From contig VGWG01000013.1 in NCBI GenBank assembly GCA_016873675.1, positions 1-45,229 of the forward strand: a stretch of DNA of 45,229 bases, in the 5' to 3' direction. This DNA comes from Lentisphaerota bacterium. Its GTDB lineage: Bacteria; Verrucomicrobiota; Kiritimatiellia; RFP12; JAAYNR01. Below the pieces are notes generated by a model, which searched no databases, was not told the DNA's origin, and worked only from the letters and a program-made list of their open reading frames with translations. Every line of letters begins with the position of its first letter. The first letter of the stretch is position 1. Below, piece by piece: positions 188 through 27,944 of this stretch. Both the position numbers and the translations under genes were made by a program.

Positions 188-2165
188 AGATGGCTGTTTA
201 TGCCAGGACGAGAATGGCAACGTCCGGCTGGAATGCACCTGTGGGTTAGTCCTCTCCGGCAAAACCGACCCCGCCAATCCCCTTTTTACCAAGGGTGGAA
301 GCTTCTGGACAAACAACTCATTCCCTCTGCTGGATCTGCCCTCCGATCAGGATCCGCGCCTGCATCCGCGTAATAACTGCATCCATCAGGGATTTGCATC
401 CGTAGCGCTGATCCCTCTTCGTAATAAAGACCGGATTGTGGGGCTGATTCAACTCAATGCCAGACAAAAGGACTTATTCTCACTCGAAACAATAGAAATT
501 CTTGAGGACATAGCCGCCCATGTAGGGGCCTTCCTTGCTCGTATCCAGGCTGATTCCCGTGTCAGTGAATCTGAAGCACGATTCCGAAGTGTTTTTGAAC
601 AATCGTCTGTCGGGGCCGTCCTTGTCGGTCTGGATAAACGCTTGATGAAATGCAATCCTGCCTTTTGCGCTTTTTTGGGATATACCGAAAAAGAACTTAT
701 AGGGAAATATATCTCAGATATTACCCATCCGGACGACCTTGAAATTGGAACGAAGGAACTGGAGCAAATGATCGACGGGAATCGGGTTTCCTTTTCGGCA
801 GAGAAGCGCTACATCCGAAAAGACGGCAGGATGGTTTGGGGGGAAGTCAATGTATCCCTTGTTCGTGATTCTGAAGGGAAGCCTTTATACTTCCTCCCCT
901 CGGTCAATGATATTGAAGCTCGTAAAAAAGCCGAAGAAGAACTCCGCAAATATGAAGAGCAGCTTCGTGTGACTCAAAGATTGGAATCGCTGGGTATACT
1001 TGCGGGCGGGATCGCTCACGACTTCAACAATATCCTCGCGGCCATCATGGGGAACGCGGAACTCGCGCTCGATGATATTTCTCCGCTTTCTCCCGGCAGG
1101 GAAAGACTTGAGGGAATCATGACAGCATCCAAGCGCGCGGCGGGCTTGTGTGCGCAGATGCTTGCCTATGCGGGAAAGAGTCGAATCGAGAAGCGCAACA
1201 TAGCTCTGGGAGATCTTGTCGAAGAAACCCTCCACTTGCTCAAGACCAGCATCTCGAAGAAAGCGATCCTGAACTTGAAGCTGGAGACGTCGCTTCCGTG
1301 CATGTTAGGCGACCCCGCGCAGATTCGCCAAATCCTGATGAATCTGGTCATCAACGCGTCGGAGGCCATAGGCGAGCGAAGCGGTGTCATCGCCCTTTCC
1401 ACCGGCGCGATGGATTGCTCGGGGCAGCACCTGACCAATGGCTACATCGTGGCGCCCGACAAGCCGGGGACCTATGTCTACATCGAGGTGTCCGACACGG
1501 GTTGCGGAATGGACAAGGATGCCGTTCAACGCATCTTTGAGCCATTCTTCACGACCAAGTTCACTGGACGCGGGCTGGGGCTGTCGGCTGTTCTGGGCAT
1601 TGTCAAAGCGCACGAGGGAGCGCTGCGAGTATACAGTGAACCGGGAAAGGGTTCGACGTTCAAGGTGCTGTTCCCCGCGATTGACGTGGCGGAGGATCGA
1701 GAACCCGAACACGACGCCAACCGCGATTGGCATGGGTCTGGAACGGTTCTGCTCGTGGACGACGAAGAGAGCATTCGCGCAATCAGCTCACAGCAGTTGC
1801 GGCGATTGGGACTCCAAGTCCTGACGGCGGAGGATGGGCTGCAGGCTGTGAATCTGTATCGCGAGCGCAAGGACGCCATCGTGCTTGTTCTGCTGGACTT
1901 GACGATGCCGCACATGAACGGAGAAGAAGCCTTCCGGGAACTTCGGCAAATAAACCCGAATGTGCGTGTGATCCTTGCCAGCGGCTATGCCGAGGATGAC
2001 ATCGCGGCGCGATTCGCCGGTATGGGGTTGGCTGGTTGCCTGCAGAAACCGTACACCGTTGACAGATTGCGCTCGCTGCTGTCCACGCTATTGCCCAAGG
2101 CAGAGCAGACAACCCGATCTGAAGAAGGGAGACGCCCCATCAAGGGCGTGCAGGCGGACGGCTAA
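21..2165 (+). CDS. GAF-PAS hybrid sensor histidine kinase with receiver domain, probably 5'-truncated
   Basis: This is a signal-transducing kinase, predicted cytosolic because no membrane segment is seen. In the 714-residue reading the order is: a GAF domain of the GGSFWTN type (about 38-180), PAS (185-300), a short coiled coil (300-320), HisKA with phospho-acceptor H333 in IAHDFNN, HATPase_c (N box near 441-446, G box GRGLGLS near 517), then a receiver with D580/D581, phospho-site D626 and K677. Such proteins normally autophosphorylate and pass phosphate to their own receiver. The first 35 residues are low-complexity (AGAGAGAG) and not GAF-like. Related GAF domains normally have another 50 or so residues before the conserved GFSANFLLVENSL stretch, so the real N-terminus seems lost. 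The reading frame stays open to the left edge, and no convincing ribosome site precedes ATG 21. It converges on the HU gene. Confidence 0.85.
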   Translation: MRSALSSSRSTDVEAGAGAGAGSGRRERPRSWHSQAQEGFSANFLLVENSLVERGKDGCLCQDENGNVRLECTCGLVLSGKTDPANPLFTKGGSFWTNNSFPLLDLPSDQDPRLHPRNNCIHQGFASVALIPLRNKDRIVGLIQLNARQKDLFSLETIEILEDIAAHVGAFLARIQADSRVSESEARFRSVFEQSSVGAVLVGLDKRLMKCNPAFCAFLGYTEKELIGKYISDITHPDDLEIGTKELEQMIDGNRVSFSAEKRYIRKDGRMVWGEVNVSLVRDSEGKPLYFLPSVNDIEARKKAEEELRKYEEQLRVTQRLESLGILAGGIAHDFNNILAAIMGNAELALDDISPLSPGRERLEGIMTASKRAAGLCAQMLAYAGKSRIEKRNIALGDLVEETLHLLKTSISKKAILNLKLETSLPCMLGDPAQIRQILMNLVINASEAIGERSGVIALSTGAMDCSGQHLTNGYIVAPDKPGTYVYIEVSDTGCGMDKDAVQRIFEPFFTTKFTGRGLGLSAVLGIVKAHEGALRVYSEPGKGSTFKVLFPAIDVAEDREPEHDANRDWHGSGTVLLVDDEESIRAISSQQLRRLGLQVLTAEDGLQAVNLYRERKDAIVLVLLDLTMPHMNGEEAFRELRQINPNVRVILASGYAEDDIAARFAGMGLAGCLQKPYTVDRLRSLLSTLLPKAEQTTRSEEGRRPIKGVQADG
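62..86 (+). repeat. GGGGGC tandem tract (G-quadruplex motif)
   Basis: Four G runs at 65-69, 71-75, 77-81 and 83-86 are separated by single C bases. This is a textbook intramolecular G-quadruplex pattern with one-base loops. It sits at the apparent junction between the surface-protein remnant and the kinase gene. Such tracts are prone to slippage, recombination and sequencing error. Confidence 0.8.
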
Positions 2166-2279
2166 TCGCCGCCGCCGCCCGCCATTCAGGCAGTCCAGAA
2201 CCAGACGGAGCATTCAAACCCCATAGCCCGAAACCCGTCCCCGCGGCTCCGTTCAACGATGGTATTCGTTCGCTGCGCC

Positions 2280-2558
2280 TCACGCGGGGGTCATGATCGC
2301 TTCTTTGGCCGCCTTGGCGAGCCTGAACTTCAGGGCCGACTTGGCCGCGATCTGGATCGTCTCGCCCGTCGCCGGGTTGCGCCCCATCCGGGCTGCGCGC
2401 TCCACCTTGACGAGTTTGCCGAGTCCCGGAATGGTGAACCCGTCCGCGGCTTCCCGGATGGCCATCGCGACCAGAGCTTCCAACATCGTCGCCGCCTGCG
2501 CCTTCTCGACACCAGCCGTTTCAGCCAACTCTGCAATGATTTCGCTCTTGGTCTTCAT
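2280..2558 (-). CDS. HU/IHF-family DNA-binding protein
   Basis: This is a 92-residue nucleoid protein of the HU/IHF family, which binds and bends DNA as a dimer. Helices occupy residues 1-40. The beta-arm carries the family signature GRNPATGETIQI (59-70), with the Pro that intercalates into DNA, and is followed by AAKSALKFRLAKAAKEAI. The length is normal (about 90-100). The start ATG 2558 follows AAAGGA at good spacing. The N-terminal half (ELAETAGVEKAQA) is more acidic than typical HU. A likely promoter and a 13-bp palindrome lie upstream. It converges with the kinase gene ending at 2165. Whether it is HU or IHF-like cannot be told. Confidence 0.93.
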   Translation of the reverse strand: MKTKSEIIAELAETAGVEKAQAATMLEALVAMAIREAADGFTIPGLGKLVKVERAARMGRNPATGETIQIAAKSALKFRLAKAAKEAIMTPA

Positions 2559-2631
2559 GGTGATTCCTTTAGGATTGTTCAGTGATCGCTCCTTGGCCGA
2601 CGAAGGCTCATGCCTGCTGTAAACCGGCCAA

Positions 2632-2644
2632 ACCGATAATCGGT
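2632..2644. promoter_or_regulatory. 13-bp palindrome in the HU leader
   Basis: ACCGATAATCGGT is a perfect dyad with a one-base centre. It lies between the proposed HU promoter and the HU start codon, inside the predicted 5' leader. It could be an operator, possibly autoregulatory, or a small hairpin. Confidence 0.4.
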
Positions 2645-2661
2645 AGCGATGTCACGCAGGG

Positions 2662-2690
2662 AGTATGCCAGAAGCGCAAAGCAATGTCCA
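2662..2690 (-). promoter_or_regulatory. Candidate sigma-70 promoter for the HU gene
   Basis: On the minus strand TGGACA (2690-2685) is followed after 17 bases by CATACT (2667-2662). The predicted transcript start is near 2655, giving a leader of about 97 bases before ATG 2558. Confidence 0.5.
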
Positions 2691-2712
2691 GCGCGCTGCG
2701 GCGATGGCGGAG

Positions 2713-3483
2713 CTATTCTAATGTGTGAAAATAGCGGCTGACCCGCGGGTCATCGCAGCGCGCCAGCACCAGACGCTCGCGGTATTCCAGCACGCGCCGT
2801 TCGCGGGCCAGCCGCCGCGACTCGGCATAGTGCAACTGCCCGGAAAGCCACGAGACCTGCACCATGACAAAATCGCAGAAGGTGGTGACATCGCGGTAAT
2901 TGATCGCGCGCCCCGCATCGAGCGCCGCCAGAATGGGTTCGGAAACCCCGCCCTCCAGTTGCATGTTCCACGTGATCTCGGGATTATGCTCCAGCTGCCC
3001 GCTCTCAACAGCCTCCTCCAGCACGCGGAAGATGTCGAGTTTATCGGCATCACGCACCATATAGGCGATCCGGGCTGCGTCTGGAGCGATGTCTGGCGGC
3101 AGCGCGATTCCATTGTGCAGCCTCACCGCTTCAAAGATGATCCGCGCATCGTCCTCGGGCATCCCGAAGCAGATCCCCTCCTGACGCATCACCGCGCATC
3201 CCCGTTCGGCGTGGTTCACCGAGGCGCTGTCCTGAAACGTGCCGAACTCGGCGTACTGCGAGAAGCGTCCGATGTCGTGCAGAAGCGCCGCCGTCCGCCC
3301 GAGCAGCGCCTCTGCCGTCGCCCATCCCTCTGCGGCCATGATGCGCCCGGCGTCGGCTACCACATGGGCGGTGTGCCGCCGCTTGAGCGCTTGCATCGGG
3401 GGAAATGCGCCGTCAGGCCCGCGAAATCGGGCCACGTACCGGTTGAAGCGGCTTCGCACCGCCTGGAAATGTCCGTGGTTCAT
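2713..3483 (-). CDS. HD-domain phosphohydrolase
   Basis: This 256-residue cytosolic protein has an HD metal-dependent phosphohydrolase fold. Visible ligands are H37 (RRHTAHV), the H69-D70 pair (ALLHDIGRF), H91 (NHAERG) and D145/D147 (VRDADKLD). Family members hydrolyse phosphate esters of nucleotides or other small molecules; the substrate cannot be read from the sequence. The gene lies 55 bp downstream of the GH43 gene on the same strand and could be the last gene of the GH110-GH43 transcript, but nothing links its function to sugar use. The start ATG 3483 is preceded by purine-rich GAAGGATGAGGGG. Confidence 0.85.
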   Translation of the reverse strand: MNHGHFQAVRSRFNRYVARFRGPDGAFPPMQALKRRHTAHVVADAGRIMAAEGWATAEALLGRTAALLHDIGRFSQYAEFGTFQDSASVNHAERGCAVMRQEGICFGMPEDDARIIFEAVRLHNGIALPPDIAPDAARIAYMVRDADKLDIFRVLEEAVESGQLEHNPEITWNMQLEGGVSEPILAALDAGRAINYRDVTTFCDFVMVQVSWLSGQLHYAESRRLARERRVLEYRERLVLARCDDPRVSRYFHTLE

Positions 3484-15057: not shown

Positions 15058-15618
15058 ATGCGCGTACTCCTCCATGCCTGCTGCGCCCCGTGCGCCTCGA
15101 CCGCCGTCGAGCGTCTCCTCGGCCTCGGCCACGCCGTGACCCTGTTCTTCAGCAACCACAACATCGACACCCCCGCTGAGCACGCGCTGCGGCTGTTGCA
15201 CGTCGAACGGCTGGCCGCGCATTTCCTCGCGCCGCTCCTCGTCGACGCCCCGGACCGCGACGCCTGGCGCGCAGCCGTGGCCGGCCACGAGAATGCCCCG
15301 GAGCGTGGCAGCCGCTGCGCCCTGTGTTTCCGCTACAGCCTCGCCCGCACCTGCGGCCACATGTTACAGGCCGGGTTCGACGCCTTCACGACCAGCCTCA
15401 CCACCAGCCCCCACAAATCGTCGCCGATCCTCTTCGTGATCGGGCGGGAACTCGCGGCGGATCGCTTCCTGGCCCTGGATTTCAAGAAGGACGACGGCTT
15501 CGGCCGCGCCCGTTCGATCAGTTCCGCCCTCGGCCTGTATCGGCAGGATTACTGCGGCTGCGCCTTCTCGCGCCCGGCGTATGACGGCTCGCAAACTCGG
15601 AGATGTCTGAATCGATGA
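15058..15618 (+). CDS. queH: Epoxyqueuosine reductase QueH
   Basis: This 186-residue cytosolic enzyme performs the last step of queuosine tRNA modification, reducing epoxyqueuosine at the wobble base of GUN-anticodon tRNAs. The family's metal-binding cysteines are all visible: C8/C9/C12 (HACCAPC), C87/C90 (RCALC) and C166/C168 (DYCGC). These hold an Fe-S cluster and a nearby metal. SLTTSPHKS is another family signature. The length is normal. ATG 15058 begins 5 bp after the previous stop, and its own stop overlaps the next gene's ATG 15615 (ATGA). No other queuosine genes are in the window. Confidence 0.93.
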   Translation: MRVLLHACCAPCASTAVERLLGLGHAVTLFFSNHNIDTPAEHALRLLHVERLAAHFLAPLLVDAPDRDAWRAAVAGHENAPERGSRCALCFRYSLARTCGHMLQAGFDAFTTSLTTSPHKSSPILFVIGRELAADRFLALDFKKDDGFGRARSISSALGLYRQDYCGCAFSRPAYDGSQTRRCLNR

Positions 15619-17474
15619 GCAGAGCGCGCAAACACAAAAAAACGGGGATTTCGGACGACTGGTCGGCCGCGCGGGCCTGTCTCGGCCCGGACGGCCGGTT
15701 GAGCGTGGTCATGCCGGCCTACAACCTCGGCCCCTCGATCGCGGCCAACAGCGACCGCGTCCGCACGCTGCTCGACGGCCGCATCCCGTTTGAGATCGTC
15801 GTGGTGGACGACGGCAGTCGCGACAACACGGCGAATGAGTTGCGGGCTGCGGCCGAGCGTCATCCGGATATCGTGCGCCCCGTGCTGCTGGCGGCCAACG
15901 CCGGCAAGGGCGCGGCGCTGCGCGCTGGCCTCGCGGCCTGTTCCGGAACCCACGTGCTGCTGCTCGACGGCGACCTCGACCTCTCCCCCGAGCGGATACC
16001 GACCTTTTTTGCCGTGATGCAGGCCGAGCGCGCCGACATCGTGATCGGCTCCAAACGCCATCCGCAATCCCAGATTGACTACCCGTGGCATCGCCGACTC
16101 GCGAGCCGGGTCTACTACACCCTCGTCCGCATCCTCGTCGGCCTGCCGGTGACCGACACCCAGACGGGCATGAAGCTGTTCCGCCGCGAGGCCATTGCCT
16201 GGGCCTTCGAGCGGATGCTCTGCAAGAGTTTCGCCTTTGACCTGGAGATGCTGGCGATCTGCCATGCCAAGGGATACCGCGTCGCCGAGGCCCCGATCCG
16301 CATGGAATTCGGCAACAAGGTTGGCTGCCTGAGCTTCTCGACCGTCAAGCACGTCATGGTGGACACACTGGCCATCTTTTACCGTCTTCGCGTCCTCCGC
16401 TACTATCCGAGCGTCGAGGTCCATCCCCTGCCCGATCCCCTGCCGCTGGTGTCGATCATCATCGCCTGCCCCGCCCCCTCGCCCTATCTCGACGAATGCC
16501 TCGCGGGCATCGCCCGGCAAACGTATGCTCGGATCGAGACCCTGGTGCTCCCCGACCTCTCCGCGCAACTTAACGCCGCGCCCGCCGCCGGTTTGCGCGT
16601 CATCCCGACCGGCCACATCCGCCCATCGGAGAAGCGCAACCGGGGCATCCGCGAGGCCTGCGGTTCTCTCGTCGCTTTTCTGGATGACGACACGATCCCC
16701 TACCCCGACTGGCTGGCGCACGCGGTCCCCTATTTCTCCGACAGCGGCGTGGCTGCGGCCGGCGGTCCGGGCGTCACGCCGCCGCGCGACCCCTGGATGG
16801 CGCAACTGGGGGGCGAAGTCTATGCCAACCGGCTGGTTTCCGGAACCTGCGTGTATCGGTACCGGCCGGGACGGGTGCGCACGGTAGACGATCTGCCGAG
16901 TTGCAATCTCATTGCTCGCGCCGACGTGGTGCGCGAGTTGGGCGGATTCAACACCGCGTACTGGCCGGGTGAGGACACGATCCTCTGTTCCGACATCGTC
17001 CACCGGCTCGGGCGGCGTATCGTGTACGACCCGTGGGCTTCGGTCGCCCACCACCGGCGCGCGCTCTTCGGGCCCCACCTGCGGCAGGTCGGGCGCTACG
17101 CCCTGCACCGCGGCTTCTTCGCCAAGCGCTTCCCCATCACGTCGCGCCGCCCGGCCTACATGCTGCCGTCGCTCTTTGTGCTCGGCCTCGTGCTGGGTGC
17201 GCCCCTGGCCGGGGTCCATCCGTGGCTGGCGCGCGCCTACCTGTGCGGCGTGGGTGCCTACCTGGTGATCACCGGACTGGCCGCCATACGCAGGTGCCCC
17301 CTCGATTGGCTCATCGTCTGGCTCGGCATCATCGCGACGCATCTCGTCTATGGCGTTCGCTTCCTTCAAGGCCTGCTCTCCAGCCGAATGCCCTGCGAGC
17401 GCCAGCGGTTCGACCATCCCTCAGAGAACACGACTTCTGACGCGGAGAGGTCCAGGTCTGTGACGCCCTCATGA
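15615..17474 (+). CDS. Tandem two-domain GT2 glycosyltransferase with C-terminal membrane segments
   Basis: This fusion of two family-2 glycosyltransferases has about 619 residues. Domain 1 (about 30-265) resembles dolichyl/polyprenyl-phosphate sugar transferases: VVMPAYNLG, VVVDDGSRDNT, LLDGDLD and TDTQTGMKLFRREA. Domain 2 (about 275-500) has LVSIIIACPAPSPYLDECL, a DDDT acceptor motif (FLDDDTIPYPDW) and NLIARADVVRELGGFN, like wall or capsule GT2 enzymes. Two or three hydrophobic helices (about 515-590) anchor it to the inner membrane. It likely loads a sugar on a lipid carrier and extends a glycan; donor and acceptor are unknown. ATG 15615 overlaps the queH stop; ATG 15603 is also in frame. 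It opens the glycan cluster. Confidence 0.85.
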   Translation: MSRARKHKKTGISDDWSAARACLGPDGRLSVVMPAYNLGPSIAANSDRVRTLLDGRIPFEIVVVDDGSRDNTANELRAAAERHPDIVRPVLLAANAGKGAALRAGLAACSGTHVLLLDGDLDLSPERIPTFFAVMQAERADIVIGSKRHPQSQIDYPWHRRLASRVYYTLVRILVGLPVTDTQTGMKLFRREAIAWAFERMLCKSFAFDLEMLAICHAKGYRVAEAPIRMEFGNKVGCLSFSTVKHVMVDTLAIFYRLRVLRYYPSVEVHPLPDPLPLVSIIIACPAPSPYLDECLAGIARQTYARIETLVLPDLSAQLNAAPAAGLRVIPTGHIRPSEKRNRGIREACGSLVAFLDDDTIPYPDWLAHAVPYFSDSGVAAAGGPGVTPPRDPWMAQLGGEVYANRLVSGTCVYRYRPGRVRTVDDLPSCNLIARADVVRELGGFNTAYWPGEDTILCSDIVHRLGRRIVYDPWASVAHHRRALFGPHLRQVGRYALHRGFFAKRFPITSRRPAYMLPSLFVLGLVLGAPLAGVHPWLARAYLCGVGAYLVITGLAAIRRCPLDWLIVWLGIIATHLVYGVRFLQGLLSSRMPCERQRFDHPSENTTSDAERSRSVTPS

Positions 17475-17505
17475 AACGTTCTGAGTTTGTTTGACACGGA
17501 AACCC

Positions 17506-18675
17506 ATGCCTTCAGCAATCACATCCAGCGGACGGCTGATCACCGTCCTGTTCGCGACGCTGATCAGCGTCCCCTTTCTGGGAACTTTTTTCAACTGGGA
17601 CTTTCATCCGCCCGGGGATGAGAATCGTCTTCTGGCCGAGCGCCCGAGGCTGCTGTCGCTGCCGCTGGCAGCCTGGCCTGCGAGCTTGGACGCTTATTGC
17701 AACGATCACATCGGCTTCCGCAACACCTTCATTCGGCGCCACCGGAAGCTGATGCAGGATGTTTTTCACCGGCAATCCGATCGCGTGCTGGAAGGACGAG
17801 ACGGCTGGCTATACCTCAAGGATAACGGCAATATCGCGGACTTTCTCGGCCTGCGCACCCTGTCGGATGAAAAGATGCAGAACCTGCGCATCAGTTTCGA
17901 AGGCCGGCAACGCTGGATTGAACAGCAGGGCATTCACCACCTGTTCGTCATCCCGCCGAACAAGCCGGTGATCTACCCCGAACATCTTCCGGATGCGGTT
18001 CTGAAGGCGCGTGGCACGGACGGCATCATGCAGTGGCTGAGCTGGCTGGAGCGCGCGTCCTCCGCGTTGAACATTCTGGACCTTCGCGACGAGCTCCTGG
18101 CGCGCAAGTCTGAAGGGCTGCTTTACTTCCCCAACGACACGCATTGGACCTATCTCGGCAGTTATTTCAGTTATTGCGCGGTCATTAAGAGGCTCAAACG
18201 GCGCTTTCCCGACGTGGAGCCGATCAGGCGCGAGTCCTGCGTTGAGGTTGAGAGCCTGTGGAAAGGCGATCTGATTGCGATGCTCGGCGACGGTCGCCCC
18301 GCCACGATCTCCTGCGTCGAGATCATGCCCGACTCGGCGCACACCAACCGGATTCAGGAGGCCCCCGCCGAGGAGATTGCGTCCCTGAAACTGCCGGATG
18401 GCATCTCCGGCGTTCGCATCATGCGCAACCCGGATGGCTCCGGGCGGATTGTGATCATTCATGATTCGTTCGCCTGGCAGGGGTGGTTTCGGTTTTTTCC
18501 CCTCCATTTTAAAGAAACCATCTTTCTGGCGACGTTGCGTCCCTCCATCGGCACCTATCGCTGGATCATCGAATCCTTCCACCCGGACGCGATTGTGGAC
18601 GAACAGATTCACCGGAACGTCCTGCACAAGCCGCAACCGGTTTTTGATGAATGGGCGAAGGCGCTGGAAAGATAG
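17506..18675 (+). CDS. AlgJ/AlgX-like O-acetyltransferase (SGNH-type)
   Basis: This 389-residue protein with one N-terminal membrane anchor (residues 10-28) has the catalytic domain outside the inner membrane. Family signs are FRNTFIRRHR, GRDGWLYL (97-104), PPNKPVIYPEHLP (150-162), the D211/H213 pair in PNDTHWT, and nucleophile S321 in HDSF. AlgJ/AlgX proteins transfer acetyl groups, supplied across the membrane by an AlgI-type MBOAT, onto polysaccharide hydroxyls. The MBOAT gene follows 5 bp later, which supports the pairing. ATG 17506 was preferred over TTG 17491. The polymer here is unlikely to be alginate, because no alginate genes are present. Confidence 0.88.
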   Translation: MPSAITSSGRLITVLFATLISVPFLGTFFNWDFHPPGDENRLLAERPRLLSLPLAAWPASLDAYCNDHIGFRNTFIRRHRKLMQDVFHRQSDRVLEGRDGWLYLKDNGNIADFLGLRTLSDEKMQNLRISFEGRQRWIEQQGIHHLFVIPPNKPVIYPEHLPDAVLKARGTDGIMQWLSWLERASSALNILDLRDELLARKSEGLLYFPNDTHWTYLGSYFSYCAVIKRLKRRFPDVEPIRRESCVEVESLWKGDLIAMLGDGRPATISCVEIMPDSAHTNRIQEAPAEEIASLKLPDGISGVRIMRNPDGSGRIVIIHDSFAWQGWFRFFPLHFKETIFLATLRPSIGTYRWIIESFHPDAIVDEQIHRNVLHKPQPVFDEWAKALER

Positions 18676-18680
18676 GACCC

Positions 18681-20192
18681 ATGGTTTTTAGTTCACTCAC
18701 TTTTCTCTTTTTCTACCTTCCCGTCGTCCTGATTCTTTACCACCTGCTCTTTCTGCAGGTTTCCCGCCACAGCTCGCGCGCGCCGCTGTTCCTCCGTCTG
18801 TCCAATCTTCTTCTGCTGTGCGTCAGCATCCTGTTCTACTTCTGGGGCGAAGGCTGGCTCGTGTGGATACTCCTCACCTCAACGCTGATTGACTACGTGT
18901 GCGGCCTGCTGATTTCCGGCGCATGGCGCACCGGACGTGTGGAGCCATTGGCGGCGGGAGGACTGCGGTCCCGCGCGCAACGCCTGACGCTGATCGCATC
19001 CCTGACGGCCAATCTGCTTTTTCTCGGTTTCTTTAAGTATTTCAACTTCGGCTTGGATACCGTGAACCATCTGGTTCCAGAGGCCTGGCGTCTGACGGAT
19101 GCCCTGCGGGTGACGCTTCCCCTCGGCATCAGTTTCTATACGTTCCAATCGATGAGTTACACGATTGACGTGTATCGCGGCCATGTGAAAGCCACCCGCA
19201 ATCTCATTGACTTCGCCTGCTATGTGGCGTTGTTCCCGCAGCTCGTGGCCGGGCCGATTGTCCGCTACGCCGATATCGCCCAGCAATTGGTGCATCGGAC
19301 CCTGTCCGCGCCGGTGTTCGCTTCCGGCGTCAACCGGTTTGTTCTGGGGCTGGCCAAGAAGGTGTTGATTGCCAACACCGTTGCCCGCGCGGCAGACGCC
19401 GTGATGGCGTTGCCCGCCGATCAGGTCACCACTCCGCAGGCCTGGGTCGCGACCCTCTGTTACAGCATTCAGATCTATTATGACTTCTCGGGCTACAGCG
19501 ACATGGCGATCGGACTGGGACGCATGTTCGGATTCCAGTTTTTGGAAAATTTCAATTATCCCTACGTCTCCCGATCCATCCAAGAGTTTTGGCGGCGGTG
19601 GCACATCTCCCTGTCGACCTGGTTCCGGGATTACCTGTACATTCCTCTGGGCGGCAACAGAAAAAGCGAAAGCCGCACGTATCTCAACCTGATTGCCGTC
19701 TTCTTCCTGTGCGGGCTCTGGCATGGCGCCAACTGGTCGTATGTGGCCTGGGGCCTCTTCCATGGATTCTTCCTCGTGGTGGAGCGTCTCGGCCTGGCCC
19801 GCCTGATCAATCGATTACCGCGTCCCCTGCAACACGGGTATGCCTTGCTGGTGATCATGGCCGGCTGGGTTCTTTTTTACACCGAATCCTTCTCGCGAGC
19901 CGTCGTGCTGATCACGTCGATGGCGGGGTTTGCGCCGACTGCGAAAAGCTCGCTCATGCTGCAGGACTGGTGGTCCGGTGACGTCCTGGCGGCCCTCGTG
20001 TTCGGCATTGTGTTTTCCGCGCCAGTCCTGCCGCGCGCCCGGCTGTGGTGTCAGCGGCTATTCATGCGCAACCCGGCCGGCGCGGCCGCCTATACGCTGG
20101 TCAACGCCGCGGCCGTGGCGTTTTTGTTCCTCTTCAGTGCCATGTCGCTAGCGGCCGGGACGCACAACCCCTTTATCTATTTCCGGTTCTAG
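18681..20192 (+). CDS. AlgI/DltB-family MBOAT O-acyltransferase
   Basis: This 503-residue polytopic inner-membrane protein has about ten hydrophobic helices. The MBOAT signature is clear: RRWHISLSTWFRDYLYIPLGG (about 305-325) and the invariant catalytic histidine H348 in LCGLWHGANWSYVAWGLFHG, with a second His at 361. Family members move acyl groups from a cytosolic donor across the membrane to an external transferase, here probably the AlgJ-like protein encoded immediately upstream. ATG 18681 follows TAGGAC at about 6 bases. Together the pair implies an O-acetylated exported glycan. Confidence 0.93.
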   Translation: MVFSSLTFLFFYLPVVLILYHLLFLQVSRHSSRAPLFLRLSNLLLLCVSILFYFWGEGWLVWILLTSTLIDYVCGLLISGAWRTGRVEPLAAGGLRSRAQRLTLIASLTANLLFLGFFKYFNFGLDTVNHLVPEAWRLTDALRVTLPLGISFYTFQSMSYTIDVYRGHVKATRNLIDFACYVALFPQLVAGPIVRYADIAQQLVHRTLSAPVFASGVNRFVLGLAKKVLIANTVARAADAVMALPADQVTTPQAWVATLCYSIQIYYDFSGYSDMAIGLGRMFGFQFLENFNYPYVSRSIQEFWRRWHISLSTWFRDYLYIPLGGNRKSESRTYLNLIAVFFLCGLWHGANWSYVAWGLFHGFFLVVERLGLARLINRLPRPLQHGYALLVIMAGWVLFYTESFSRAVVLITSMAGFAPTAKSSLMLQDWWSGDVLAALVFGIVFSAPVLPRARLWCQRLFMRNPAGAAAYTLVNAAAVAFLFLFSAMSLAAGTHNPFIYFRF

Positions 20193-20265
20193 CCTGAGAT
20201 GGACATCCTCCTTCAATCATGCCATACTTTCCAACCGTTTCAGGGGCCATCTCCAGGAATAATAC

Positions 20266-22146
20266 ATGTGCGGTTTTCTTCAGGTGATTCACAGGAACAA
20301 GCCGGTGAACCGGGATCGCTTTCGTCATGCGCTGGCGTCGATGCGTCATCGCGGCCCCGACCAAAGCGGCGAGCTTTTTGTTGAACGCGAAACGTGTGCA
20401 CACGAGGGCCAAAAGCAGACGGTTTATTTTGCGTTCGGCCATCAGCGGCTGTCCATTCTGGATGTGTCGGAGAAATCCAGACAACCGTTTGTCATCGGCC
20501 CGGACGTGTTGTTGTTCAACGGAGAAATCTATAATTTTAAAGAGTTGAACGAAGCCCTGATAGCACGGGGACACGTGATCGAGACCCACGGGGACACAGA
20601 GACGCTTTTCAAGAGCGTCCTCGCCCAGGAGGACCAGGCCCTCAAACACTTCAACGGCATGTGGGCTTTTTCGCTGTATCAGGCGGATCGATTCCGTCTG
20701 TTTCTGTCACGCGACCGCTATGGAAAAAAGCCGCTTTTTTATTATCGGGATACCGATACGTTCTGCGTGTCATCCACCCTCTATGCGATCCAATCCTATC
20801 TCCATCGTCCACTCGTCTTTAACCGGGACACGGTGGCGCGCTACCTGGTTCATGGAACGCTGTATCCATCCGGATGCGCCGAGACCCATTATCAGGGGAT
20901 TTCGCAGATTTTGCCCGGACACTGGGGCGTTTTTGACCTCAACTCCTGGACAATCCGGCAGGAGCGGTATTTCAATTTTTATGATTCCGAACTGGCAGGT
21001 CAGATCAACGACGATCCGGAACAGCTTGTGGAGGACCTCAAGGACAGCGTTCGAAAAAGGCTTATTTCGGATCGTCCGGTCGGCTTGTTGCTTTCGGGAG
21101 GCATTGACAGCACGCTGATCCTATCCACGCTCTATACGCTCGGGCTGCATGAGCACTGCCGGGTGTACATGGGCGACACCGGGAAATCGGAGGACTATGC
21201 GTATGCCAAGCGGTGCGCCGATCAACTGGGTGTCCGCGCCGAAACCGTCTTGCTCGACTATGACTCGAACACCTTTGATCGCTTTCTCACGATCTGCCGG
21301 CATCAGGAGAAGCCGTTCTCGATGAATGGCAGCACGATGGCGATGCCGCAAATGTATGAGGTGATCGCCGCGCAAGGCGTGCCGGTCGTGCTGGATGGCA
21401 CGGGCGGGGACGAGCTATTCGGCGGCTATTGGCAGCGCCAGTTTCCGTTTGCGGTGCGCGAGGCCGTCAGACAGGGCGACTGGACGTGGATCTGGAATCA
21501 GCTGTTGTGCAAGGACGATGAGCACATCGTCCGCACCCATCTGTTGCGTTCCTTTCTGCCCGCTGCCTGGCTTGAAGCGACGCAGTCGGCGGGCAACAAA
21601 CTGAAGGCTCTGGCCTATCCCTGCTTGAAGGTTGAGCTGCGTCAGATCCTCGGATCATCCACCGCCGACCCGCTCGACAATCTCTCGTTCTCTTTCACAG
21701 AGGCGATGTGCGCCGATCTCGCGCCCGGCGGCCGACTGGGTGAATGGCTGTGGCATAACGACCGCAACTCCATGATGTCCAGCGTGGAAGGGCGCAGCCC
21801 CCTGTTGGATTACCGGCTCAATCGCTATGCCTACAGCGGGTATCGCCGGAAGTTCCGTTCCGCCTGGAACAAATATGAATTGCGCCAGGCCTTTGACTCG
21901 CTCGCGCCGCTGCCGTCACAATGGCGGCAGCAAAAGCAGGGTTTCCGCTGGGACGGCAAACGATTCCTGTACAACAATCAGTCTCGCATTCTGGAATTGC
22001 TTCGCGCCAACACGTGCCTGACGGATCTTGTCGACATGCCGAAGCTGGTGTCTTATGCCCATAGATATCCCAAATTGCTGCGTTCGTCATTCTTGAAAAA
22101 GGCGCTGGTCATTTCGGGCGTTGAGGCCGCACTGGGGGGCGTTTGA
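20266..22146 (+). CDS. Asparagine synthase (glutamine-hydrolysing)-like amidotransferase
   Basis: This 626-residue class II glutamine amidotransferase starts MCGF, so Cys2 becomes the N-terminal nucleophile. The glutaminase half has R61LSILD, N85GEIYN and GD at 109-110. The synthase half carries the ATP pyrophosphatase loop SGGIDS at 277-282 and DGTGGDELFGGYW further on. True AsnB makes asparagine from aspartate. Paralogues in polysaccharide clusters are thought to amidate sugar acids or peptides, and that is likely here given the neighbours, though unproven. ATG 20266 follows AGGA. The next gene's ATG is 1 bp after this stop. Length is typical. Confidence 0.88.
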   Translation: MCGFLQVIHRNKPVNRDRFRHALASMRHRGPDQSGELFVERETCAHEGQKQTVYFAFGHQRLSILDVSEKSRQPFVIGPDVLLFNGEIYNFKELNEALIARGHVIETHGDTETLFKSVLAQEDQALKHFNGMWAFSLYQADRFRLFLSRDRYGKKPLFYYRDTDTFCVSSTLYAIQSYLHRPLVFNRDTVARYLVHGTLYPSGCAETHYQGISQILPGHWGVFDLNSWTIRQERYFNFYDSELAGQINDDPEQLVEDLKDSVRKRLISDRPVGLLLSGGIDSTLILSTLYTLGLHEHCRVYMGDTGKSEDYAYAKRCADQLGVRAETVLLDYDSNTFDRFLTICRHQEKPFSMNGSTMAMPQMYEVIAAQGVPVVLDGTGGDELFGGYWQRQFPFAVREAVRQGDWTWIWNQLLCKDDEHIVRTHLLRSFLPAAWLEATQSAGNKLKALAYPCLKVELRQILGSSTADPLDNLSFSFTEAMCADLAPGGRLGEWLWHNDRNSMMSSVEGRSPLLDYRLNRYAYSGYRRKFRSAWNKYELRQAFDSLAPLPSQWRQQKQGFRWDGKRFLYNNQSRILELLRANTCLTDLVDMPKLVSYAHRYPKLLRSSFLKKALVISGVEAALGGV

Positions 22147-22147
22147 G

Positions 22148-22816
22148 ATGGAATCCGTTCTCAGTTTGGGCGATTGCAACACCTGCGGCATCGCTCCGTG
22201 CGAAGGGAATGCCTATCCGGAGCGGTTCGCGCAGCTTCTTGGCGGAGTCGTGCGCAACTGTGGCTACACCATGTCCACCATGCGGGAGGCCTCCTATTTC
22301 TTCCGTGATTTCTACACGCATGACACGACCATCGTGACTCTCCAATACGGACTTGTGGATTCCTGGGAAACCTTTGCCTACGCCCCCTATGTCCTGTACT
22401 ATCCCGACAATCTGGTCCGCAAACTCTGTCGAAAAGTTGTCAAACGCTATAAGAAGCTCTGTCGTCAGACGGGCCTGAACACCTGGCTGGGTAGCGCGCC
22501 GCTCGTGCCGGTGGAGGAGTATGCGCGCAGGCTGACCCAGATCATCGAAGCCTGCCGGCCCGACACCCGAATCCTGCTCATTGAAACCGTGCCGAACCGG
22601 AATGAATCGCGCAATCCCGCCATCCGACGTTATAACGACGCCCTGCGGAACGTTGCGGCAGCGCATCCCCGCTGCCAGGCGCTCGACACCTACGATTGGT
22701 TTGCCACCCATCGCGACACGCTGTATCTGGACGACACGCACATCAACGCGCAGGGGCATGAATGGATCTCCCGCGGGCTTCTTGACCTCTGCTCAAACGC
22801 GGAGGGTGCCGCATGA
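22148..22816 (+). CDS. SGNH/GDSL-hydrolase-like protein with Cys at the nucleophile position
   Basis: This 222-residue protein has no signal peptide. The block I motif is LSLGDCNTCG, so Cys10 stands where the catalytic Ser of GDS is expected. Block III reads LQYGLVDSW instead of GxND. Block V is intact with D195/D196 and H198 (LDDTHINAQGHEW). The fold assignment is good; the activity is not obvious. It could be a thiol esterase or acyltransferase, or an inactive relative. It lies between the AsnB-like gene (1 bp gap) and the ELM1-like gene (ATGA overlap), so it probably acts in the same glycan pathway. Confidence 0.75.
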   Translation: MESVLSLGDCNTCGIAPCEGNAYPERFAQLLGGVVRNCGYTMSTMREASYFFRDFYTHDTTIVTLQYGLVDSWETFAYAPYVLYYPDNLVRKLCRKVVKRYKKLCRQTGLNTWLGSAPLVPVEEYARRLTQIIEACRPDTRILLIETVPNRNESRNPAIRRYNDALRNVAAAHPRCQALDTYDWFATHRDTLYLDDTHINAQGHEWISRGLLDLCSNAEGAA

Positions 22817-23895
22817 AGCCAGTTATTCGATGCCTGATTCTTTCCGACAACAAGCCCGGCCACGTGACCAACAGCATGGGGGTGTTCAAGGCCATCCAAA
22901 CAATCGTGGCGGCGGAATCGGTCGTGCTTCAGGTCCGCCTCCGCCTGAAAATGATCCGCTATCCGTTACGATGGCTGCTGAACCGGCCGACCCTTCTGCG
23001 CCGCATTCCCGCAGGCACGCAACGCCGGCTGATGGGACTCGTGTACCAAATGTGCGAGCCTCAGCACCTCGACCCGACACAGCCGTTTGACTGGGTCATA
23101 TCGAGCGGCGGCGACACCTCCTTCCTGAACGTCTGGCTGGCCCAGCGTCATGGCCTCAGAAACATGTACTGCAGCGCGTTGAGGGGGCTGAATCCTGCCC
23201 TCTTCACGGTGTATTTCTCGCTGGGCGCGGCCTCGGTTCACAACAACAACATCCGCGTGCCCTTTATTCCCCTGCTGACGGACCGGGCGCGGATCTTGGA
23301 GCAGGGCCAGCAATTCAGGACGGCCCACGGGCTGGAACATCAAACGGTCTGGTGCGTGCTGATCGGGGGTGATGGCGCAGGGTATCACTATGACGCCGCA
23401 TCGCTGGAGCAGTTGGCCCACGGGCTTCTCGCGCTGGCTCGGGACTATCAGGTCAAGCTGCTCGTTACCACGTCTCGCCGCACCGGATTGAAGCTCGAGC
23501 GCGTGCTGAAATCGGTGCTCGGTGATTGCCCGGCCGTAGCGTATGCCACGTACTATAATCACCGCCCCGAGAAAGTTGTCGCGTCGTTTCTCGGTGCCGC
23601 AGATCTGGTGTTTTGCACTGCGGACAGCGGATCGATGATCACCGAAGCCATGACGGCGGGCAAACCCGTCTATTCCCTCATACCCGAACAGGTCCGGCCG
23701 CAACCGTTCTATCAGGCGTTTCTTCAATCCCATGCCGACGCCCGCCGGATCAAGCCGGTCGCCATCGGCTCCCTGCACACGCTCGATCCAAAACGGGACG
23801 TCGCCTCCTATTTTCAGGTGCTGGAAAAGGACACCACGGCGGAGCTTGCCGCCCAGCTCAGCCCCTGGATTCGGACGGAGGACTCATGCGCATAG
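22813..23895 (+). CDS. ELM1-like (DUF1022) GT-B-fold protein
   Basis: This 360-residue protein opens LILSDNKPGHVTNSMGVFKAI, the start typical of the mitochondrial-fission ELM1/DUF1022 family. The bacterial members look like GT-B glycosyltransferases. Later signs are DWVISSGGDTSFLNVW, VLIGGDGAGYHY, and CTADSGSMITEAMTAGKPVY, which matches the nucleotide-sugar-binding half of GT-B enzymes. No membrane segment is seen. Its function in bacteria is poorly known; in this cluster a sugar transferase is the simplest guess. The ATG overlaps the previous stop (ATGA), and its own end overlaps the next gene by 10 bp. Confidence 0.75.
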   Translation: MKPVIRCLILSDNKPGHVTNSMGVFKAIQTIVAAESVVLQVRLRLKMIRYPLRWLLNRPTLLRRIPAGTQRRLMGLVYQMCEPQHLDPTQPFDWVISSGGDTSFLNVWLAQRHGLRNMYCSALRGLNPALFTVYFSLGAASVHNNNIRVPFIPLLTDRARILEQGQQFRTAHGLEHQTVWCVLIGGDGAGYHYDAASLEQLAHGLLALARDYQVKLLVTTSRRTGLKLERVLKSVLGDCPAVAYATYYNHRPEKVVASFLGAADLVFCTADSGSMITEAMTAGKPVYSLIPEQVRPQPFYQAFLQSHADARRIKPVAIGSLHTLDPKRDVASYFQVLEKDTTAELAAQLSPWIRTEDSCA

Positions 23896-24983
23896 CCTAT
23901 TTTGTCAACTCGTTCAATGCGATCAACTGGGGCGGACAGGCGACCTCCACCGGTCTGAAGCGGCTGGCGGCGCAGAATTATCCGCATGCGGAGTTCGTTC
24001 CACTGGACGTGCCCAAGCTGCCCTACAAGCATCTCGCGCCCATTCGGTCTCTTTTCGAGCATCACCTGGCCCGAGCGATTCTGGCGGATGATGCGGCTGG
24101 TGTCGCGCGCAATCTGCGGCGCCTGAACATCCCGCTCACGCTTTTTCAGGGTTTTGACACCGTCTGTTTTAATGGCGAGGGAGCCATTCATGCGAAGTCC
24201 GGCCATTTGATTCGCCTCATGGGCATGCTGTGGTATTTCAAGCACGCGGGGTGCTTTGTCAGCGCGTTGAATCAAACGGTGGACCTGGGCCGGCAGTCGC
24301 TGGCCCGGGAGGTGGTTGCACACGTCTATCGCACGCTCGATTACGTCAGCGCCCGCGAGCCCGTCTCCTTCCGGGAACTGGTCGGCCTCGGGGTCCGCGC
24401 GCAGCTCGTTCCGGATGCGGTGTATGCGCTCCCCCGGCTCTCGGAGTCGGAGATCGAACCGCTCACGGCCGGTTTGAATCTTCCGCCTCATTTCATCGGC
24501 GTGACCGGGTCATCGGCATTGAGCAAGTCATCCACGCGCACGATGGATCGCCTGCTGACGTGCATTCGCGCCCACTACGCGATGCCCATCGTGTTCCTGG
24601 CAAACGCGAAGACCGACATCGCCCTGGCGAAAGCGCTGAGGCGGAAGCATCCCTTTCTCATCATCCAGCCGCCGGTCCGGTATGAACAGGCCATGGCGGT
24701 CGTCGCCAAGGCGCATCTGATCGTCGGCGGCAGGCAGCATCCGAACATTTTTGCGGCGATGCATCGCGTGCCGTTTGTCCCGTTTCGAGGCAACACGCAT
24801 AAAATGGAGGGGGTCTTGGAGTTGCTCGGCTATCCGCTTCAAGCCCTGCCGTGGAGCAGCGATGCGCGCGCCATCGAAGCCGCTTTTCAAACTGTTGACC
24901 GCCTCTACGACACCCTTCGCGCGATTGAGGCGCCCCGTGTCACGACGCTTGTTCTGAGTCAGAAAAGTGAGGACGTGAAATGA
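23886..24983 (+). CDS. Polysaccharide pyruvyl transferase family protein
   Basis: This protein of 365 residues resembles the WcaK/CsaB polysaccharide pyruvyl transferase family. Signs are the N-terminal MRIAYFVNSFNAINWGGQATSTGL, FNGEGAIHAKSGHL (about 97-110), SAREPVSFREL (about 155-165), a GVTGSSAL turn, and the C-terminal IVGGRQHPNIFAAMHRVPFVPF, where this family usually has G(G)R-H. The enzymes transfer pyruvate from phosphoenolpyruvate to sugar hydroxyls as ketals, giving the glycan negative charge. ATG 23886 overlaps the preceding gene by 10 bp. Its stop overlaps the methyltransferase start (ATGA). Confidence 0.8.
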   Translation: MRIAYFVNSFNAINWGGQATSTGLKRLAAQNYPHAEFVPLDVPKLPYKHLAPIRSLFEHHLARAILADDAAGVARNLRRLNIPLTLFQGFDTVCFNGEGAIHAKSGHLIRLMGMLWYFKHAGCFVSALNQTVDLGRQSLAREVVAHVYRTLDYVSAREPVSFRELVGLGVRAQLVPDAVYALPRLSESEIEPLTAGLNLPPHFIGVTGSSALSKSSTRTMDRLLTCIRAHYAMPIVFLANAKTDIALAKALRRKHPFLIIQPPVRYEQAMAVVAKAHLIVGGRQHPNIFAAMHRVPFVPFRGNTHKMEGVLELLGYPLQALPWSSDARAIEAAFQTVDRLYDTLRAIEAPRVTTLVLSQKSEDVK

Positions 24984-25705
24984 TTATTCATCCCGACGAT
25001 CTGGTTTATCTGCACGGCCGTCAGTATACCAACAGTTTGAGGGCTCGCTTTGTTTTGGACCCGCGTGATTTCATCTACCAGACGCGCGTTCATATCCTCG
25101 AAGACCGATGTCGTGGAAAGCACGTCATTCATCTCGGCTTTGTGGATCACACCCCGCAATCGGTTGACAAGAAATTAAAGAAGAACAAATGGCTGCATGA
25201 GGCGCTCTGCCGCGTGGCATCCCGGTGTTATGGGTTGGACATCGATCAGCCGGGGGTCGACTACGTGAAGAACGTCCTCGGCTATCAGGACGTGGCGTGT
25301 CTGGATATCCTCAAGCAGGACTGCGCAGATATCTTTTCCCGGACCTGGGATTGCCTGCTCATTCCGGATGTTCTGGAGCACCAAAACAATCCGGTGGACT
25401 TCCTGGCCGCATTCGCCCGCAGGTTCAACGGTGTTGCGGCTGAAATGATCATTACCGTGCCCAATGGATTTGCGCGGGAGAACCATCGGGCCGTGCGGCA
25501 GAATTGCGAAGTGATCAACTCCGATCATCGGTATTGGTTCACCCCCTACACGCTGGCCAAGGTCATCACGGCCGCCGGCTTGCGCGTGAAGGAGATGCGA
25601 ACGTGCCGCAGTGGAACGATCAAATCGTGGACCGTGTTGAAAAATCACTATTACGCGAGACATCCGTTGCTCAGAAACAGCATCGTGGCTGTTGTCGATG
25701 TGTAG
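24980..25705 (+). CDS. SAM-dependent methyltransferase (glycan cluster)
   Basis: This 241-residue class I methyltransferase has motif I degenerate as VIHLGFVDHT (about 49-58), the acidic residue after strand 2 in GLDIDQPGVD (about 83-92), and a DVLEH motif (LLIPDVLEHQNNP, about 126-138) typical of the Methyltransf_11/23 groups. An IITVPNGF strand and SDHRYWFTPYTL follow, as in sugar and ubiquinone methyltransferases. The target is unknown; position suggests O-methylation of the cluster's glycan. ATG overlaps the previous stop. A 48-bp gap separates it from the GT4 gene. Confidence 0.8.
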   Translation: MIIHPDDLVYLHGRQYTNSLRARFVLDPRDFIYQTRVHILEDRCRGKHVIHLGFVDHTPQSVDKKLKKNKWLHEALCRVASRCYGLDIDQPGVDYVKNVLGYQDVACLDILKQDCADIFSRTWDCLLIPDVLEHQNNPVDFLAAFARRFNGVAAEMIITVPNGFARENHRAVRQNCEVINSDHRYWFTPYTLAKVITAAGLRVKEMRTCRSGTIKSWTVLKNHYYARHPLLRNSIVAVVDV

Positions 25706-25753
25706 CGGTTGCGTTTTGCTTCTTAACCCGCATGAGATTGTCACAGGGCACAC

Positions 25754-26761
25754 ATGCATAGTTGCCATATTATCGCGAGCGCGGCAGCGGGCGGCATGGA
25801 AAACCACCTGATTGCCCTCTGCAACGGGCTGTGTCGGAACCAGACCGTCACCGTGGTGGCGGCCGACTGGTTTCTGGATAAGTTTCATCCAGACGTGCGC
25901 GTTATCCCCTTCAACGGGCTGTTGTCCAGTCGGTATAATCCGCTGACCCTGATACGGCTGCGGCGGTTGATCAAACAGATCGCCCCCGACCTCATTCATG
26001 CGCACGGCAGCAAAGCGGCGACCTTGATCGCCGTCCCCCGTTTGTTTGACGCGTTCGTACGCGTGACCACGGTGCATGGGCTGAAACGGCGAACCTCCTT
26101 CCTGCGGGCGTTTGACCGCGTGATTGCCGTGAGCCGGACGGTCGCCAACGCCCTCGCCGGACTTCCGGTTGATGTGGTCATGAACGGCGTGCCGCTGTCG
26201 GATGATCCTCCAGCCCCTGGGCCTGCCAACCAGCCTCCGCTCGTCATTGCGATTGGCCGTCTCGTTCCAGTCAAGGGTTTTGATGTGCTGCTGCGCGCGT
26301 GGGTTGAGGTCCCGTCCGCGCGATTGCTGATTGTCGGCGAGGGGCCCGAGCGCACCGCACTCGAATCGCTGTCCCGCCAGCTGGGCGTGTCTTCCCGCGT
26401 GACGTTTGCCGGATTTCGTGCGGACGTCCAGTCGCTGCTCCGGACGGCTGATTTGATGGTCATCGCCTCGCGGCGCGAAGGGCTGCCGCTGGTGCTGATC
26501 GAAGCGCTGCATGCGCGGCGTCCAGTCGTTTCGACGGCCGTGGGCGGGATGCTGGGTTTTCTACCGCCGGAGACGCTGGTGCCGTCCGAAAATCCAGCGG
26601 CTCTAGCCGCCACACTCAACACCGCGCTCGCCGATCTGCCCGCATACGGAACGTCTTTTGAAGCGCTCTGGGCGTTTGCCCGCCGCGAGTTGACCGACGA
26701 CGCCATGGTCGCGCGCACCGAGGCCGTCTATCGATCGGTCCTGGCCGCGCGTTGCGTCTAG
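25754..26761 (+). CDS. GT4-family glycosyltransferase
   Basis: This 335-residue GT-B enzyme has an N-terminal acceptor domain with AAAGGMENHLIAL and PDLIHAHGSKAATL. The C-terminal donor domain has AIGRLVPVKGFDVLLRAW, LLIVGEGPERTALESLSRQLGVSSRVTFAGF, and the EX7E-type stretch SRREGLPLVLIEALHARRPVVST. This is the classic GT4 (WaaG/PimA-like) layout using a nucleotide-sugar donor. No membrane segment is present. It is the last gene of the plus-strand cluster and converges with the DsbD-like gene, whose stop lies 10 bp away. The sugar transferred is unknown. Confidence 0.92.
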   Translation: MHSCHIIASAAAGGMENHLIALCNGLCRNQTVTVVAADWFLDKFHPDVRVIPFNGLLSSRYNPLTLIRLRRLIKQIAPDLIHAHGSKAATLIAVPRLFDAFVRVTTVHGLKRRTSFLRAFDRVIAVSRTVANALAGLPVDVVMNGVPLSDDPPAPGPANQPPLVIAIGRLVPVKGFDVLLRAWVEVPSARLLIVGEGPERTALESLSRQLGVSSRVTFAGFRADVQSLLRTADLMVIASRREGLPLVLIEALHARRPVVSTAVGGMLGFLPPETLVPSENPAALAATLNTALADLPAYGTSFEALWAFARRELTDDAMVARTEAVYRSVLAARCV

Positions 26762-26771
26762 CGAACCGCGC

Positions 26772-27944
26772 TCACCAGCCGGTCAGCAGCAGGATCGCGA
26801 TGGCACTGAAGAACAGGCCCAAAATCACTTTGACCACCACCAGATTGCGGCGGCTCCAGTCTAGGAGGCGATTGATCTGCATGCCGCGATGGAAGCAGAT
26901 GAAGACCACGGCAAGGGGGACGACAAAGAGCAGGTTGTACAAGACGAGAAGCAGCCAGGCGTAGAGCCGGGAGGTGTCGTGCTTGACCAGATACATCAGG
27001 ACCGGCAGGTAGCCCTGTCCGGTGCAGACGCTCTCGAGAATGGTGACGGCCGCGCCGATGAGGAAGCCGCTGATGACCGGTCCCCCGAAGCCGAGGCCAC
27101 TACGCATGACCGCATGGATGCGCGTCTTAATGCCTGTGGGGATTTGGAGCGTGACATCATTCACGCGACCCGTTTTCTTAAAGCGGAAGGCATCCCGGAA
27201 CGAGAGGACGGCGAGAGGGATCATGCCGAGGCCGACGGCGATCTCAACGTATTTCTTGAAGGCGTAGAAATTGGGCACCCGCCGGAGGGCGAAGAAAAAG
27301 CCCAGCCCGAGGCCGGTATAGACGATGAACGAGGCGGTGATGAATGAAATGCCCACCAGCAGGCGGGTGCGCTTGCTGACTTTGAGGACGGTCAGCAGAC
27401 TCAGGAAGAAGATGAGCGTGGAGATGGCGCAGGGGTTGAAGCCGTCGGTCAGACCGCCGATGGCCACGATGGAAATGGTCATGGCGCTGGCGCGCTTCTG
27501 CACGACGTCGCGCTGTTCGTCCGTTGTCATCCGGGGTGGCTCCGGAGGACGCCAGTTGGAGGACTGGCGGCTGGCCAGGGCCGCGTTGACGCGATCCAGC
27601 AATGTCGCGGCAATCGTTTCATAGCCCGAAAGAAACACGGTGTGATCCACGATGATGGAGACGAGGCCGCTTTCATGATTGTCGCACCGATTCTGGTAGG
27701 CGATCAGCAGGGGGATGGTCTCCGCCTGGTTCATGTCGTGCGCGACCAGCTCGTAAAAATCCGCGAATCGCTCCTCCAGTTCGGGGAACACCTCGCGCTT
27801 CACGCGTTCGCACTCGGAGCACCCGGGGGAGAAGAAGAAATCGAGCCGCACCTGATCGGCGATGCCGGCGCGAAGGGGCGGACACAAGGCAAACGCGAAC
27901 CAGGCAAGGGCGAGAAGAACCGGCACTCGGAATGTACGTAACAT
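26772..27944 (-). CDS. Thioredoxin-domain/DsbD-CcdA-like thiol-disulfide transporter
   Basis: This 390-residue membrane protein has a signal sequence (1-26), a periplasmic thioredoxin-like domain with C42-x-x-C45 (FFSPGCSECERVK), and then about six to eight helices of the DsbD/CcdA type. GFNPCAISTL (about 170) and ESVCTGQGYLP (about 295) carry the two membrane cysteines. DsbD-type proteins carry electrons from cytosolic thioredoxin to the envelope. Here the soluble thioredoxin is at the N-terminus rather than the C-terminus as in DsbD, and there is no separate alpha domain. It probably delivers reducing power for periplasmic disulfides or cytochrome maturation. The start ATG 27944 fits the promoter upstream. 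Confidence 0.82.
   Translation of the reverse strand: MLRTFRVPVLLALAWFAFALCPPLRAGIADQVRLDFFFSPGCSECERVKREVFPELEERFADFYELVAHDMNQAETIPLLIAYQNRCDNHESGLVSIIVDHTVFLSGYETIAATLLDRVNAALASRQSSNWRPPEPPRMTTDEQRDVVQKRASAMTISIVAIGGLTDGFNPCAISTLIFFLSLLTVLKVSKRTRLLVGISFITASFIVYTGLGLGFFFALRRVPNFYAFKKYVEIAVGLGMIPLAVLSFRDAFRFKKTGRVNDVTLQIPTGIKTRIHAVMRSGLGFGGPVISGFLIGAAVTILESVCTGQGYLPVLMYLVKHDTSRLYAWLLLVLYNLLFVVPLAVVFICFHRGMQINRLLDWSRRNLVVVKVILGLFFSAIAILLLTGW

Follow-up and report, generated by a model that had tools for sequence, protein, structure and literature searches.

Described systems for surface-glycan assembly and modification

Several described systems share parts with the locus analyzed here. Alginate-type O-acetylation (AlgI/AlgJ/AlgX) combines an MBOAT protein with an SGNH partner, with overlapping genes and catalytic-type motifs. 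The window locus likewise has such a pair, but it lacks alginate genes and its AlgJ similarity is low (E 0.0011 against the AlgJ structure, PDB 4o8v). WbpS-type amidotransferases form uronamides in surface glycans (PMC7468200). As with WbpS and WbqG, an AsnB-like protein is encoded within a surface-glycan locus and matches the related TIGR03108 model; unlike them, it falls below the cut-off of that model (WbpS/eps_aminotran_1; 220 against 816.9 bits), and no Wbp uronic-acid genes are found among the nine genes. Wzx/Wzy-dependent polysaccharide loci contain a flippase and a polymerase, whereas the window locus has neither.

The ELM1-like proteins form a further point of comparison. In Acinetobacter baumannii, deletion of either the ELM1-like gene 2903 or lpsB yields the same Kdo2 core, and the paper makes the case for 2903 as a glycosyltransferase, its structure model resembling glycosyltransferases (PMC10936431). 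By description rather than by sequence comparison, this pairing of an ELM1-like protein with a predicted glycosyltransferase, both required for one core step, may be likened to the ELM1 and GT4 of the window. The A. baumannii locus as described in the passages covered (ELM1, glycosyltransferases, polysaccharide deacetylase) also recalls the short-ELM1 part of a Sulfurovum MAG locus, L003; unlike the window locus, it is described there without a pyruvyl transferase, AsnB, or AlgI/J (PMC10936431). Long ELM1 and GT4 proteins of the same clades as those of the window are paired in L003 and in two gammaproteobacterial MAG loci, L004 and L005. In these three proteobacterial-type loci the GT4 gene lies directly ahead of ELM1, whereas in the window the order is reversed, two genes intervene, and no lipid A genes are near.

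Organization of the locus

The window, the whole 45,229-nucleotide stretch of DNA analyzed, is contig C13 of a 3.17-Mb genome in 218 contigs. A Gram-negative lineage is suggested by an LpxL-like ORF on contig C5, as judged by eye. Positions 15603-26761 of the window are filled by nine intact plus-strand ORFs without internal stops (Table 1), in agreement with the nine consecutive genes of the initial annotation. Pfam supports its domain identities gene by gene, with a weak match for the methyltransferase, for which PF13489 lies below the gathering score and PF08241 barely above it. The annotated Cys-type SGNH protein is likewise borne out: GDCNTCG begins at residue 17, where the GDS serine is expected, and the D-x-x-H motif is kept from residue 204.

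Table 1. Genes of the glycan locus, with positions in the window.
Feature	Position	Strand	Evidence
Two-domain GT2 protein (double GT2), C-terminal hydrophobic segments, 623 aa	15603..17474	+	Pfam GT2 x2
AlgJ/AlgX-type SGNH O-acetyltransferase partner	17491..18675	+	PF16822 E 6.8e-19; DTHW at 216, HDSF at 324
MBOAT membrane acyltransferase, AlgI/DltB kind	18651..20192	+	PF03062 E 5.4e-31; HGANW at 358
AsnB-like glutamine-hydrolysing amidotransferase	20266..22146	+	PF13537 (GATase_7), PF00733 (Asn_synthase); Cys2, SGGIDST at 277
SGNH-like protein, Cys for block I Ser	22121..22816	+	PF13472 (GDSL-like lipase) E 1.2e-13; GDCNTCG, DxxH
ELM1-like (PF06258) long form, predicted GT-B glycosyltransferase	22813..23895	+	PF06258 E 3e-31
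Polysaccharide pyruvyl transferase, weakly CsaB-like	23886..24983	+	PF04230 (PS_pyruv_trans) E 1.2e-16
Putative SAM-dependent methyltransferase, weak match	24980..25705	+	PF13489 E 2e-5, PF08241 E 4e-4
GT4 glycosyltransferase	25754..26761	+	Pfam GT4; clade neighbouring long ELM1 in L003, L004, L005

The eight junctions measure, in order, +16, -25, +73, -26, -4, -10, -4, and +48 bp, with the pyruvyl transferase start set to 23886, most likely the true start, an ATG preceded by GGAGGA. Most genes had been described as overlapping or 0-6 bp apart; the five overlaps fit that description, and the three true gaps (16, 73, and 48 bp) do not. Upstream, the double-GT2 gene overlaps QueH by 16 bp. Such an arrangement of nine co-directional, mostly abutting glycan-type genes is not a product of chance, and the genes may be co-transcribed.

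A resident gene and a sporadic block

The double GT2 is widespread in the order, with matches at 46-75% identity in 53 of 58 relatives (54 of 59 counting its own genome), nearly always in single copy. None of genes 2-9 adjoins it in 30 fetched loci searched by tblastn, the sole other match near it being a 24% ELM1 match about 6 kb away in L087. No shared glycan neighbourhood was seen among the 24 loci where the double-GT2 ORF could be placed. The gene is thus an order-wide resident, probably outside the block formed by the eight genes that follow, and possibly a core envelope enzyme. Almost every genome sampled from the order retains it, with neighbours that vary (loci L064-L083 and L086-L095). 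The second GT2 domain resembles MftF (TIGR03965), below the cut-off.

Orthologs of the genes behind it were sought among relatives. Nothing besides itself matches AsnB in 162 genomes of the order (E<=1e-100) or in 289 of the phylum (1e-60), and the same holds for the pyruvyl transferase in 388 genomes of the phylum (E<=1e-15); each count takes in the own genome. The SGNH ortholog was not found in the 388 phylum genomes (the own genome and 387 relatives); partial matches there (E 1e-7 to 7e-4, 23-37% identity) were rejected as orthologs and represent generic SGNH proteins. A search of 369 genomes from the class of L005, run without a positive control, gave no SGNH match at 1e-6, and tblastn of SGNH and ELM1 against plasmids gave no match. 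The relatives sampled represent one phylum and, for SGNH, one other class in addition, and any more distant homes of the set would lie outside this sample.

Since the resident GT2 occurs elsewhere without the set, orthologs of AsnB, SGNH, and the pyruvyl transferase were not found, and ELM1 is rare (see below), genes 2-9 appear, as far as tested with AsnB, SGNH, ELM1, and the pyruvyl transferase in the genomes of relatives, to be a sporadic block behind a resident gene. Base composition is consistent with this division, GC3 being 0.846 for the double GT2, 0.85-0.86 for QueH and GT2, and a mildly low 0.69-0.76 for genes 2-9. It suggests acquisition as a block and does not prove it, because genes in the left part of the window have values (0.62-0.81) that overlap those of genes 2-9. 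The gene on the right flank is matched in genomes of the same genus and the same family (87% over 151 residues; 62%), with other genes beside it. The product of this gene (26772-27944) is a membrane protein that carries a CxxC close to the N-terminus and for which a weak SfLAP match is the only one given by Pfam.

Candidate modifications of the glycan

The AlgJ-type and AlgI-type proteins have the features of an AlgI/AlgJ-type module, namely an MBOAT protein and an SGNH partner with DxH and Ser motifs. Together with the pyruvyl transferase and glycosyltransferase genes, they uphold the annotation of the region as a glycan assembly and decoration locus. The more specific prediction of an acetylated, pyruvylated, methylated, and amidated glycan survives in part: genes for O-acetylation and pyruvyl transfer are present, whereas methyl and amide decoration stay guesses, because the methyltransferase match is weak and AsnB may either amidate a sugar or produce asparagine.

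The AsnB gene overlaps that of the Cys-type SGNH protein by 26 bp. It is conceivable, though we consider it improbable, that the two form an enzyme module for amide- or acyl-linked decoration of the glycan in which the SGNH protein would act as a thioester-type transferase instead of a hydrolase. The AlphaFold2 model of the SGNH protein alone had a pLDDT of 39.5 and was therefore left out of the fold search. A literature search on Cys-type SGNH proteins found none.

Export and polymerization genes

As initially annotated, the nine genes include no flippase or polymerase by Pfam, and no exosortase gene is among them. A search for Wzx/Wzy or ABC exporters outside the window had been proposed. 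In a contig search of the own genome, Wzy_C matches were found on C45 and C21, with one on C128 below cut-off. C45 carries genes of the WecG, GT2, GT4, and Poly_export types, and Wza- and Wzy/WaaL-type genes are likewise assigned to it. A Wzc/Wzz-like (GNVR/Wzz) protein encoded on C128 also has an AAA domain. For the Wzx family, the highest-scoring match lies close to the end of C45 and remained below cut-off. The cell thus seems, judging from gene content, to have export machinery; no link between it and the window locus was found. The C45 region (L100) is a polysaccharide locus in its own right, comprising WecG-STAS, Wzy/WaaL-like, Wza-like, and glycosyltransferase genes.

Proposed function and alternative interpretations

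The reading we favor, and hold to be reasonably probable, is a surface-glycan locus, specific to its lineage, in a Gram-negative bacterium; in it, an order-wide double GT2 is followed by a sporadic block of eight genes. The locus may be of the LPS or polysaccharide type, with an O-acetylated, pyruvylated, and amidated product. For donor, acceptor, order of steps, and product we infer the following scheme. Sugars would be added in the cytoplasm, by the ELM1-like GT-B protein and the GT4, to an acceptor that is lipid-linked or of the LPS-core type. Modification of these sugars would fall to the pyruvyl transferase and possibly also to the methyltransferase and the AsnB-like amidotransferase, and the exported product would be O-acetylated in the periplasm by the AlgI/AlgJ-type proteins. 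Flipping, polymerization, and outer-membrane export would depend on genes elsewhere in the genome.

The initial annotation had instead proposed a conserved, undescribed glycan-decoration system, a reading to which the compact, co-directional genes and their uncommon mix lend some appeal and which we now regard as very unlikely. It had itself named a gene set syntenic in no relative as a finding that would speak against it, and among the relatives searched no such synteny was found. AsnB, SGNH, and pyruvyl transferase orthologs occur in none of them at the cut-offs used, and the double GT2 has other neighbours in its 30 loci. The gene types are known, and an ELM1-like protein has already been tied to the LOS core; with the set in no searched relative, an ordinary lineage-specific locus is indicated rather than a new conserved system. 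A resident gene followed by a sporadic block can pass for one operon or system, and caution is warranted.

The nine genes might also be two units lying side by side, one comprising QueH-GT2-AlgJ-AlgI (resident genes and the O-acetylation pair) and the other AsnB-SGNH-ELM1-PyrT-MT-GT4 as an LPS-core-type cassette. At 73 bp, the spacing between AlgI and AsnB exceeds every other in the run, and a promoter-like match (20200-20228) falls within it; by reading, no AlgI/AlgJ-like ORF was seen in L003, L004, or L005, the three loci of the ELM1/GT4 clades. This alternative is nevertheless rather unlikely. Promoter-like matches over the region are near chance (6 found against 3.6 expected), so that the match in the gap is no evidence by itself; a single strand is used throughout, and in GC3 AlgJ and AlgI are like the genes that follow and unlike GT2. 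It is similarly doubtful that the locus holds, in its AsnB-like protein, an ordinary asparagine synthetase present by chance. The protein passes the asparagine synthase cut-off of TIGR01536 (299 against 267 bits), and the own genome has no second AsnB match. Against this, its gene lies within a glycan locus in overlap with SGNH, a hydroxyamidotransferase (E 1.1e-32) ranks ahead of E. coli AsnB (E 1.2e-20) as its top match in the PDB, and a search of 161 genomes from the order revealed no close relative.

The ELM1-like protein and its GT4 partner

The AlphaFold2 model of the window ELM1 (pLDDT 86.7) matches GT-B-type enzymes in Foldseek, among them UDP-GlcNAc 2-epimerases, MurG, and WaaG, and the protein is accordingly a predicted GT-B fold glycosyltransferase. 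Its GT4 partner belongs to the ELM1-adjacent clade: the window GT4 shares 34-40% identity with the GT4 proteins encoded immediately ahead of long ELM1 in L003, L004, and L005, and 25-28% with other GT4 proteins aligned over their length. The window ELM1 is 32-33% identical to the long ELM1 of the same three loci. In the window the two are not adjacent, being separated by the pyruvyl transferase and methyltransferase genes. Lipid A acyltransferase genes lie near the pair in L003 and L005, with WaaA in L005; L003 also has a polysaccharide deacetylase, and a similar ORF was noted by reading in L005. No lipid A or LPS genes were detected by Pfam among the nine window genes. The pairing is thus seen in a lineage remote from those three loci, where both genes are direct neighbours. 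Combined with the A. baumannii genetics, it provides a function open to testing, glycosyl transfer during LPS/LOS-type assembly, for a protein family whose name still refers to mitochondrial fission; a literature search under the name 'mitochondrial fission ELM1' yielded no papers.

Matches to the window ELM1 in 40 of 95 genomes might suggest conservation. This was rejected, since 22 of the 24 loci re-tested (L006-L029) match the short paralog on contig C5 at 46-91%, and L006 is the long form of genome G029 (57%); weaker matches that returned no locus were outside the re-test. The 40 matches thus appear, from the re-tested sequences, to be largely the other copy. Close relatives occur in only one of 94 relatives, G029, and in a different context: its 57% copy adjoins an APH/Kdo-kinase-like gene and no other window gene, and another long-form copy has 37-39% identity. 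Besides the long ELM1 and the APH/Kdo-kinase-like protein, this region of G029 (L030:3432-8894) encodes three proteins that Pfam assigns to no clear family, and it represents a glycan or LPS locus distinct from that of the window. L016, fetched for a weak ELM1 match, is matched by neither ELM1 query at 1e-10 and has a GT4 match alone (2030-3118), to a GT4 of the L003 GT4a and L084 type (48-55%). The short paralog of the own genome (L033:12053-13000, contig C5) adjoins a MurA-like gene near the LpxL-like ORF, and a MurA-like gene is also adjacent to short ELM1 in two relatives (L010 and L024).
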